A DNA stretch of 64,000 nt from assembly GCF_000025005.1 (NCBI RefSeq), contig NC_013525.1:1948501-2012500 (forward strand), read 5' to 3'. Positions 9,462 through 13,266 of the stretch are shown in pieces (position 1 is the stretch's first letter; every line of letters starts with the position of its first letter). Below the pieces are notes generated by a model. It had not been told where the DNA came from. It searched no databases and worked only from the letters and a program-made list of their open reading frames with translations. The DNA is from Thermobaculum terrenum ATCC BAA-798. Lineage in GTDB: Bacteria > Chloroflexota > Chloroflexia > Thermobaculales > Thermobaculaceae. The position numbers were made by a program, and so were the translations under genes.

Positions 9462-10262
9462 GTGACCGAAGTAATAGGTCGCACAAACCATATCAGCCCT
9501 CTACTGTCAGTAATAGACATCCTAGTAGTAGCAGCTATATTCTATTGGATACTGGGACTCGTTAAGGGCACAAGGGCTGTACCAGTACTTAGAGGATTAG
9601 CCATAATCCTTGTATCCTCCGTAGCGCTCCTGATAATCTTCCAAATTACGCCCTTCAAGCTTCGAGCTCTGGACTTCCTGCTTCAAAGGGCGTTGCTCCC
9701 GGGATTTGTAGTGGCCATTCCAGTTATATTCCAGCCGGAGCTTAGGAGAGCGTTAGAGAGAATCGGCACATCCACCACATTCTCAGCTCTTTACAGCCAT
9801 TCTGAAACAGATGAGATAACTAAATTGGCCCAGAACATAACCAAAGCCGTGACCGATCTTGCAGACAGAAGAATAGGCGCGCTCATAGTCATTGAGCGAG
9901 AGACAGGGCTTGAGGATATAGCAGACACAGGGACAAGGATCGATGCCTGTGCGGATCCAGGATTGCTCGAAAGCATATTCATGCCCAATGGGCCTCTACA
10001 TGACGGAGCTGTCATAATCAGCCGCGGCAGGATAGTCGCAGCTGGATGTGTGTTACCCTTAAGTGAGAATATGAGGGTACTGGGAGAAAGGGGGACAAGG
10101 CACAGAGCAGCACTGGGTGTAACCGAGACCTCTGATGCAATAGCGGTGGTGGTCAGCGAGGAAACAGGTGTGATATCTGTAGCCCAAAATGGCAGGTTAC
10201 TGAGTAACTTTACTGAAGAGAGGCTGATGAGGTTCCTCACAGCAGCTCTCAAACCCAGCTAG
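9462..10262 (+). CDS. cdaA: Diadenylate cyclase (cyclic-di-AMP synthase), CdaA family
   Basis: 266 residues. Three membrane segments at the N terminus (about 15-90) precede the DisA_N catalytic domain. Catalytic motifs are intact: GPLHDGAVII carrying the DGA motif, and GTRHRAALG carrying the RHR motif. The enzyme condenses two ATP to cyclic-di-AMP, a messenger controlling osmolyte and potassium transport and cell-wall homeostasis. A GTG start is used after a GGAG sequence. It heads a three-gene operon with an unknown membrane protein and the YbbR-domain regulator; stop-to-start distances are 2 bases and a 4-base overlap. Confidence 0.95.
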   Translation: MTEVIGRTNHISPLLSVIDILVVAAIFYWILGLVKGTRAVPVLRGLAIILVSSVALLIIFQITPFKLRALDFLLQRALLPGFVVAIPVIFQPELRRALERIGTSTTFSALYSHSETDEITKLAQNITKAVTDLADRRIGALIVIERETGLEDIADTGTRIDACADPGLLESIFMPNGPLHDGAVIISRGRIVAAGCVLPLSENMRVLGERGTRHRAALGVTETSDAIAVVVSEETGVISVAQNGRLLSNFTEERLMRFLTAALKPS

Positions 10263-10264
10263 AT

Positions 10265-11167
10265 ATGAGTAAAAGTCTTGGATACTCCAACAAAATCCGT
10301 ATTCCCACCTACCTTTGGGTAGGAGCTATATGGATAGTCCTTGCTGAGATACTACTCTTCCTTAGGGTAAAACCTGTACCTACCTTCTTCACACCCATAG
10401 TATGGACCGGCTACATATTGCTGGTTGATGGGCTAGTCAAGGCCAAAACTGGCAGATCTCTCATAACTACGAGATTCAGCTTGTTTCTTATCATACTGCC
10501 CTGGTCCATAATTACATGGCTAGTATTCGAAGGTTACAACCTCCATCTGAGAAACTGGCAATATTTCGGACTACCTCAGGACCTTACCCCGAGGCTCCTG
10601 GGATACGTATGGGCTTTCGCAACAATAATTCCAGGCGTGCTTGAGTCAGCCGACTTCGTCAGAGCTTTCTTAGCTCCAAGAGTAAGAATCAACAAGTGGA
10701 CGCCAGGGCAGAAGTTGCTAAACTCATCTATCTTATTAGGAGCTTTATGCTTGATTCTACCTCTACTGATGCCCCAGCGAGTAGCAAGTTACATGTTTGC
10801 ACTTGTCTGGATCGGATTTATATTGCTCCTGGACCCCATACTATACCTGTTAAATAAGCCTTCAATATTAGGCGATTTAGCAAAGGGCCATACAACACGT
10901 CTGGTAAGCCTGCTCATCGCTGGAGTAATAACCGGAGCACTGTGGGAATTCTGGAACTACTGGGCTGAGGCCAGGTGGGAGTATACCATCCCCTACCCTC
11001 TGAGCGCAGGACCTCACTACTTTGAGATGCCTTGGTTGGGTTTCTTTGGTTTCATCCCGTTTGCTATAGAGTTGTTTGATCTTACAAGCTTGCTGATGCT
11101 TTTCCTGGACAAAACAGGTATCTACTCCAGCAATAAAGCTGATACTCAAGATATACTATCTCTATGA
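10265..11167 (+). CDS. Uncharacterised polytopic membrane protein between cdaA and cdaR
   Basis: 300 residues with about eight hydrophobic segments and short loops. I do not recognise the family. Two halves look related. The first has WTGYILLVDGLV (47-58) then FEGYNLHLRNWQYFGLP (88-104). The second has WIGFILLLDPIL (182-193) then WEFWNYWAEARWEYTIPYP (227-245). Each half therefore carries a membrane-adjacent Glu followed by an aromatic-Asn pair. Its start is two bases after cdaA and its end overlaps cdaR by four bases, so it is co-translated with the cyclic-di-AMP synthase and its regulator. A role in sensing, regulation or transport tied to cyclic-di-AMP is inference. Confidence 0.85.
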   Translation: MSKSLGYSNKIRIPTYLWVGAIWIVLAEILLFLRVKPVPTFFTPIVWTGYILLVDGLVKAKTGRSLITTRFSLFLIILPWSIITWLVFEGYNLHLRNWQYFGLPQDLTPRLLGYVWAFATIIPGVLESADFVRAFLAPRVRINKWTPGQKLLNSSILLGALCLILPLLMPQRVASYMFALVWIGFILLLDPILYLLNKPSILGDLAKGHTTRLVSLLIAGVITGALWEFWNYWAEARWEYTIPYPLSAGPHYFEMPWLGFFGFIPFAIELFDLTSLLMLFLDKTGIYSSNKADTQDILSL

Positions 11168-11883
11168 AGGAAGTTCCCTGGAGAAGGATCTTCGTAGCTA
11201 CGAAGATCCCCAGCTCCAAGCTTGAAGCTATATCTTCCAGATTACCTCGGGCAGCCATAGCCTTAGGCATGGCCATACTGCTATGGCTATATGTCACTTC
11301 CACAATAGACACCCAGCGGATACTTTACCCTGCGGTCGAGGTAGAACTCCGTAACCTGCCTCCGGATATGGTACTGGTTAGCAGGGTACCTACTGTGACT
11401 GTAACTATACAACCGCTTAGTCCCGTACTAGGAGGACAAATAGACAGACCCAGAGCTTATGTGGACCTGTCTGGAGTAGGTCCCGGAGTACATACTCTGC
11501 CAGTACAGATTGAGGGATTACCAGGGGCACAGATCGTAGATGTCTCACCGAGAAGAGTAAGAGTCATTCTTAGAAAGATACTCTCTAGAAAGTATCCAGT
11601 GCAGGTTCAGATGAGTCCTCAAGGGATAAACACAAATGGTAAGCTCAAGTTCACCGTAGAGCCCAAAGAAGTGACCGTTAGCGGGACCATGAATCAGCTG
11701 TCAAGAGTACAAAAAGTAGTAGCTAATATCAACCAGCAGACCCTGAAACCTGGAACAGAGATAACAGCAGAGGTACAAGCTTACGACGAAAACAACAGAG
11801 TAATCGATAGCGTGACTATTGATCCCCAGCAGGTGAAGATAAGGATAACACCACAAGAAACACCCACCCCATCGCCATCCTAA
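11164..11883 (+). CDS. cdaR: YbbR-domain protein, CdaA regulator-like
   Basis: 239 residues. One N-terminal membrane segment (about 36-52, AAIALGMAILLWLYV) anchors an extracytoplasmic region with two to three YbbR repeats. Repeat cores end in patterns such as LPVQIEGLPGAQIVDVSPRRVRV and VTIDPQQVKIRIT. The tail is short and Pro/Thr/Ser-rich. In Firmicutes, CdaR binds CdaA and modulates cyclic-di-AMP output. The conserved operon position supports the same role here, although an additional membrane protein separates the two genes. No terminator with a T-tract follows on this strand; the hairpin downstream belongs mainly to the opposing tRNA. Confidence 0.88.
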   Translation: MKEVPWRRIFVATKIPSSKLEAISSRLPRAAIALGMAILLWLYVTSTIDTQRILYPAVEVELRNLPPDMVLVSRVPTVTVTIQPLSPVLGGQIDRPRAYVDLSGVGPGVHTLPVQIEGLPGAQIVDVSPRRVRVILRKILSRKYPVQVQMSPQGINTNGKLKFTVEPKEVTVSGTMNQLSRVQKVVANINQQTLKPGTEITAEVQAYDENNRVIDSVTIDPQQVKIRITPQETPTPSPS

Positions 11884-11905
11884 AGACCAAATTGATAACA
11901 AAAAT

Positions 11906-11936
11906 AGGGGCTTGAAGCAAATATCTTCAAGCCCCT
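11906..11936 (-). terminator. Intrinsic terminator after tRNA-Pro
   Basis: A perfect 12-base-pair stem (11906-11917 with 11925-11936) and 7-base loop. Read on the minus strand it is followed by ATTTTTG, so it ends the tRNA-Pro transcript. It may also block readthrough from cdaR on the plus strand. Confidence 0.88.
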
Positions 11937-11948
11937 GCGTGATTATAA

Positions 11949-12024
<76 letters not shown>

Positions 12025-13095: not shown

Positions 13096-13266
13096 CTCCT
13101 TTACAATAAAGTAAGCCCCTACCTGCTTGAGACAGGCAGGGGCTTACCACTATACGCTCGGTATATATCTTCTACCCACTCCCCTTGCCTCGGCTGGCGA
13201 TAACATTAAGCGCTCAGGGCGCACCAGCTGTCTCAGGCAGGCAACGCTTGCAAATTATAGCATTAA
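13096..13266 (-). promoter_or_regulatory. L10-leader-type regulatory region of rplJL
   Basis: The 171-base gap between rplA and rplJ holds a strong hairpin: GTAAGCCCC at 13111-13119 pairs with GGGGCTTAC at 13139-13147, with an inner CCTG/CAGG helix. Read on the minus strand it is followed by TTTATTGTAA and then the rplJ AGGAGGTG ribosome site. Position and shape suit the autoregulatory L10 leader, where excess L10(L12) represses rplJ-rplL. I could not align the kink-turn element by eye, so the name is by position. Confidence 0.6.

Follow-up and report, generated by a model that had tools for sequence, protein, structure and literature searches.

The gene examined here lies between cdaA, which encodes the membrane diadenylate cyclase, and cdaR in Thermobaculum terrenum, and the question raised by this position is whether its product, designated X, is a component of cyclic di-AMP signaling or has a function of another kind. 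The window, i.e., the whole 64,000-base stretch of DNA that was analyzed, corresponds to positions 1,948,501 to 2,012,500 of a replicon of 2,026,947 bases in a genome totaling 3,101,581 bases; the same sizes are published for chromosome 1 and the whole genome of T. terrenum YNP1 (PMC3035366). A first-pass annotation of the sequence had placed X 2 bases after cdaA and in a 4-base overlap with cdaR, and the open reading frame coordinates confirmed this spacing and the common strand of the three genes (Table 1). X is presumably cotranscribed with cdaA and cdaR. No intrinsic terminator was found on the same strand, and the matches obtained in a promoter scan did not exceed the level expected by chance. 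The G+C content of X was not unusual (45%, versus 48% for the window), and base composition therefore gave no support for a recent transfer. No glmM gene followed cdaR (positions 11883 to 12024), and the downstream genes were on the opposite strand, with a tRNA at 11951 to 12024 (minus strand) and then apparent rplL and rplJ genes, also on the minus strand. An Rfam scan of the region detected only the tRNA and an L10 leader (13101 to 13255).

Table 1. Positions of X, its predicted repeats and motifs, and the flanking genes in the window
Feature	Position	Strand	Basis
cdaA, membrane diadenylate cyclase, upstream in the host operon	9462..10262	+	TIGR00159, 1.6e-68; Pfam DAC, 1.3e-44
X, unnamed 300-amino-acid protein with 8 transmembrane helices in two similar halves	10265..11167	+	
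X repeat 1, residues 12-143, four helices	10298..10693	+	Model; HHalign of halves
W47-x-G-Y-I-L-L-V-D55 segment, repeat 1	10403..10429	+	W47 invariant, D55 99% (122 relatives)
F88-E89..N92..N97-W98-x-Y100, outer-side motif, repeat 1	10526..10564	+	F88, E89, W98, and Y100 invariant (122 relatives)
X repeat 2, residues 144-286, four helices	10694..11122	+	Model; HHalign of halves
W182-x-G-F-I-L-L-L-D190 segment, repeat 2	10808..10834	+	W182 invariant (122 relatives)
W227-E228-F-W-N231..W238-x-Y240, outer-side motif, repeat 2	10943..10984	+	W227, E228, N231, W238, and Y240 invariant (122 relatives)
F253-E254-M255-P256 hairpin	11021..11032	+	M255 and P256 invariant (122 relatives)
cdaR (YbbR), downstream of X	11164..11883	+	Pfam YbbR, 1.5e-11; 4-base overlap with X (ATGA)

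The first-pass annotation had proposed that X may sense the osmotic or envelope state or control CdaA, a reading that would have supplied a missing input to CdaA. The distribution of the gene order did not support this proposal. Neither cdaA nor cdaR was detected in the flanks of X relatives outside T. terrenum (0 of 87) or of the further Chloroflexota loci, with flanks of varying length and some short contigs, such that isolated exceptions could be missed. Rather than being a recurrent triple, the cdaA-X-cdaR order was found in T. terrenum only among the genomes examined. Four genomes of the same family had cdaA followed directly by cdaR, with 90 to 240 bases between the two genes, and X was absent from all positions in the six same-family genomes searched. 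The T. terrenum locus resembles the known cdaA-cdaR(-glmM) operon and differs from it in the presence of X and the lack of glmM.

A maximum-likelihood tree built from 122 sequences placed the T. terrenum protein apart from relatives of the same class and within a clade of 77 members, mostly from other phyla (support, 99/96). Its nearest relatives in the tree were from Kryptoniota, Ignavibacteriota, KSB1, and Calditrichota, with weaker support (91/55). The simplest reading of this placement, taken with the absence of X from the same-family operons, was a horizontal gain with insertion at the cdaA-cdaR junction, and X probably reached the T. terrenum lineage by this route. Judging from the genomes sampled, the insertion looks like a one-off, lineage-specific event. 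Overall, we are highly confident that X represents a widespread, unnamed eight-helix family, arrived horizontally, and came to lie between cdaA and cdaR without being a conserved part of the c-di-AMP system. Recruitment of X within T. terrenum to regulate CdaA and CdaR or to act together with them, for example, as a sensor of envelope or osmotic state, would be consistent with the spacing of the genes, which implies cotranscription and possibly translational coupling, and with the fact that all three products are membrane proteins. However, tight spacing is usual in operons of any kind, and with the arrangement confined to one genome and no cdaA gene near the relatives examined, such recruitment was considered highly improbable.

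The description of X as a membrane protein outside the named families was borne out. Searches of Pfam, NCBIfam, PHROGs, PADLOC, and PDB sequences with X, and of Pfam, NCBIfam, and PDB with 82 family members, gave nothing both significant and consistent; scattered Pfam and NCBIfam matches of single members were taken as chance. A scan of the whole collection detected 334 close relatives from many phyla, of which 80 were retrieved, and a homologue was carried by 52 of 400 Chloroflexota genomes. A plasmid search detected no relatives. X belongs to a widespread and uncharacterized family that the searched libraries do not name and that occurs in many uncultured phyla and in some Chloroflexota. The first-pass annotation had also allowed for a known, unrelated family found mostly away from cdaA; the location away from cdaA was observed, but the known family was not.

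The internal duplication of X extended beyond chance similarity. Comparison of half 1 with half 2 by HHalign, using the 82-member family, gave a probability of 96% and an E value of 2.8e-9, and the single halves of X matched each other by BLASTP (6e-7). Each half contained the previously noted W-x-G-[YF]-I-L-L-[VL]-D segment (W47-T-G-Y-I-L-L-V-D55 and W182-I-G-F-I-L-L-L-D190) and a Glu/aromatic/Asn motif of the form [FW]-E-x-x-N (F88-E89..N92 and W227-E228..N231). Sixteen residues were invariant over the 122 relatives, namely, W47, S81, W85, F88, E89, W98, Y100, W182, W227, E228, N231, W238, Y240, M255, P256, and F266, and D55, S65, and E269 were 99% conserved.

An AlphaFold2 model of X, built from the 82-sequence alignment, had a pLDDT of 93.3 and a pTM of 0.90 and consisted of two sets of four helices. 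The first-pass annotation had put the Glu/aromatic/Asn motif near a membrane edge, and in agreement with this the model placed E89 and E228 close to the end of the third helix in their respective halves. Loops rich in Lys and Arg alternated with loops poor in these residues, and by the positive-inside rule the N terminus would be inside and the side bearing E89, E228, and the associated Asn and W-x-Y motifs would be outside. Foldseek comparison of the model with PDB and BFVD produced no match (best E values, 1.2 and 0.4; TM score, ∼0.2).

A likeness to the CrtYc/CrtYd lycopene cyclases (CarR domain; TIGR03462; CarR_dom_SF) was noticed post hoc, from secondary-structure strings and motif spacing. 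Both families have two fused transmembrane repeats, and in both a helix ends with the pattern acid-x8/9-W-x-[YI]; in X repeat 1 and in the cyclase halves the acid-to-Trp distance was 9, and in X repeat 2 it was 10. The AlphaFold2 models of the two proteins had a helix, a W-x-[YI] strand, a hairpin, and a further helix in the same order. In X repeat 2, helix 211-233 was followed by the strand W238-x-Y240, then a short helix, a pair of 2-residue strands leading to P256, and a helix, and in a modeled CrtYcd cyclase a helix was followed by the strand W64-x-Y66, a short helix, two strands leading to P80, and a helix, with much the same pattern repeated in the second half. In contrast, X has 4+4 helices rather than the 3+4 of the cyclase, the PxEE motif that was invariant in the cyclase set is replaced after the hairpin of X by M-P-x-x-G, and many X-bearing genomes lack a phytoene/squalene synthase. 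Neither X nor the 82 members matched the TIGR03462 model in NCBIfam. HHalign of X and of its halves against lycopene cyclases, with secondary-structure scoring included, gave probabilities of 0.1 to 1.5%, the same as for reversed decoys, while the positive control (c1 versus c2) gave 97%. An X-profile search of 42 genomes with known lycopene cyclases, at E values up to 10, produced no match at the cyclase loci. Membership of X in the lycopene cyclase family was rejected, with the HMM, profile-profile, and PxEE comparisons all negative; the link is one of working in a like manner and not of membership.

In the proposed mode of action, the two fused four-helix repeats would together create a pocket of pseudo-twofold symmetry at the outer surface of the cytoplasmic membrane. 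The pocket would be lined by the invariant Glu (E89 and E228), Asn (N231), Trp (W98 and W238), and Tyr (Y100 and Y240) residues and could carry out acid-base chemistry on a lipophilic substrate, after the manner of CrtYc/CrtYd. We tentatively favor the view that X is an enzyme embedded in the membrane, with a lipid, an isoprenoid, or another lipophilic compound as its substrate; its enzymatic nature, pocket, chemistry, and substrate class are putative assignments from motifs and models, and no sequence-profile link of X to any enzyme family was found.

A carotenoid substrate would be a candidate in T. terrenum, which is pink (PMC3035366), and X could there replace a missing C50 hydratase (CruF) or cyclase. 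A crt cluster was present on chromosome 2 at about 174,080 to 179,530 (L233:4080-9534) and was read as idi-crtI-crtB-UbiA-like prenyltransferase-glycosyltransferase, with crtB assigned by its PF00494 match and the remaining gene names read from the sequence rather than from a family search. T. terrenum lacks both CruF (PF04240) and a CrtYcd-type cyclase (TIGR03462), and CruF was present in four of the five same-family genomes searched, all of which lack X. CruF (bisanhydrobacterioruberin hydratase) is, like X, an integral membrane protein with conserved acidic and aromatic motifs. Phytoene/squalene synthase was more common in Chloroflexota genomes with X (39/52) than in those without it (167/348), a difference uncorrected for relatedness, and homologues of X were paired with the CarH photoreceptor in one clade (see below). 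However, no Pfam match linked X to CruF, HHalign probabilities (0.1 to 0.3%) were no better than those for reversed decoys (a CruF subclade used as the control gave 98.9%), and X and CruF occurred together in Thermomicrobia-like genomes. Furthermore, X and the crt cluster are on different chromosomes in T. terrenum. Outside the Chloroflexota sample, PF00494 was present in 21 of 50 X-bearing genomes and absent from the other 29, including all three Kryptoniota, and within Chloroflexota a 100%-complete genome (G230) had X without PF00494. The 29 genomes lacking a phytoene/squalene synthase contradicted a carotenoid-only role for the family, and a general carotenoid role was therefore rejected. 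The idea of a carotenoid enzyme, which the first-pass annotation had named as an example of what would refute its own proposal, was suggestive in respect of the CarH pairing and the cyclase-like architecture and failed as a general role; a carotenoid role in T. terrenum itself is possible, with the replacement of CruF or a cyclase by X appearing quite unlikely. For the family in general, the substrate of the proposed enzyme would be something other than a carotenoid.

The CarH pairing was a further lead to function. Among the 47 Chloroflexota loci examined, 17 had a MerR-B12 gene directly upstream of the X homologue, often with a 1- or 4-base overlap. Pfam matches (MerR_1, B12-binding_2, and B12-binding) indicated a MerR helix-turn-helix and two B12-binding domains in this regulator, and the Wx9EH motif was present in 15 of 15 of the paired regulators, as in the AdoB12 photoreceptor operons of the CarH/LitR type. 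Adjacency by coordinates added five genomes (G098, G350, G357, G374, and G391), giving 22 with a carH-X pair. These genomes represented three Chloroflexota families and a single clade of the tree, distant from the T. terrenum protein, and the genes around the pair differed. PF00494 was present in 20 of the 22, and several had a second CarH gene, identified by coordinates, beside carotenoid genes. In T. terrenum, a single CarH-like MerR-B12 gene was detected (G000:C2:153753-154646, minus strand), which differs from the paired genes in lying on chromosome 2, away from X and ∼20 kb from the crt cluster.

CarH represses its targets in the dark and releases them in the light (PMC4557120), and X would therefore be expected to be light induced in the carH-X clade, through a dedicated CarH-type B12 repressor. 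X might instead be a sensory or signaling membrane partner of CarH-type photoreceptors, as the direct and often overlapping carH-X pairs in three families could suggest. This reading was judged very unlikely, as most X loci have no carH beside them and CarH is described as repressor and photoreceptor in one, with no need for a membrane partner. The enzyme reading could be extended to propose that the family constitutes a membrane enzyme class of a new kind, with a lycopene cyclase architecture and a noncarotenoid lipid or isoprenoid substrate at the outer face, and that one lineage has brought this enzyme under the control of a B12 light sensor of its own for membrane photoprotection; this fuller version is speculative and distinctly more doubtful than the assignment of X as an enzyme.

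Elsewhere, the neighbors of X homologues included TldD/PmbA, S58, M24, and M16 peptidases, D-Ala-D-Ala ligase, TPM proteins, and a mechanosensitive channel. Clustering of neighborhoods outside Chloroflexota detected no partner common to several clades, and the clade-specific neighbors of X do not converge on a single pathway. The main rival to an enzyme is a transporter or channel, in which two parallel four-helix repeats would form a path for a solute or ion with a Glu/Asn/Trp binding site; solute transport had also been among the functions first suggested. Eight helices, pseudo-twofold repeats, and conserved charged residues would suit such a protein, as would the S58, M24, M16, and TldD/PmbA peptidases and similar neighbors in several phyla. 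Nevertheless, X matched no transporter family or transporter fold, and its best-conserved motifs, together with a strand-hairpin element, are gathered near one face and are not spread all through the membrane; we regard a transporter as unlikely. What remains when the c-di-AMP reading is set aside is a widespread unnamed family with a confidently modeled structure that has no Foldseek match, conserved Glu, Asn, Trp, and Tyr residues, and a CarH pairing in one clade, for which a membrane-embedded enzyme is our preferred, tentative reading.

Two further observations were made on individual homologues. In Thermomicrobia-like genomes, the X homologue was followed by FhaA-like genes (FhaA_N plus FHA; L182, L184, L185, and L187, and also L183 and L186), an adjacency that was considered as a link to the cell wall and was limited to this one clade. 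Another homologue (L087:6197-7549) carried ∼170 additional C-terminal residues and is a possible fusion.
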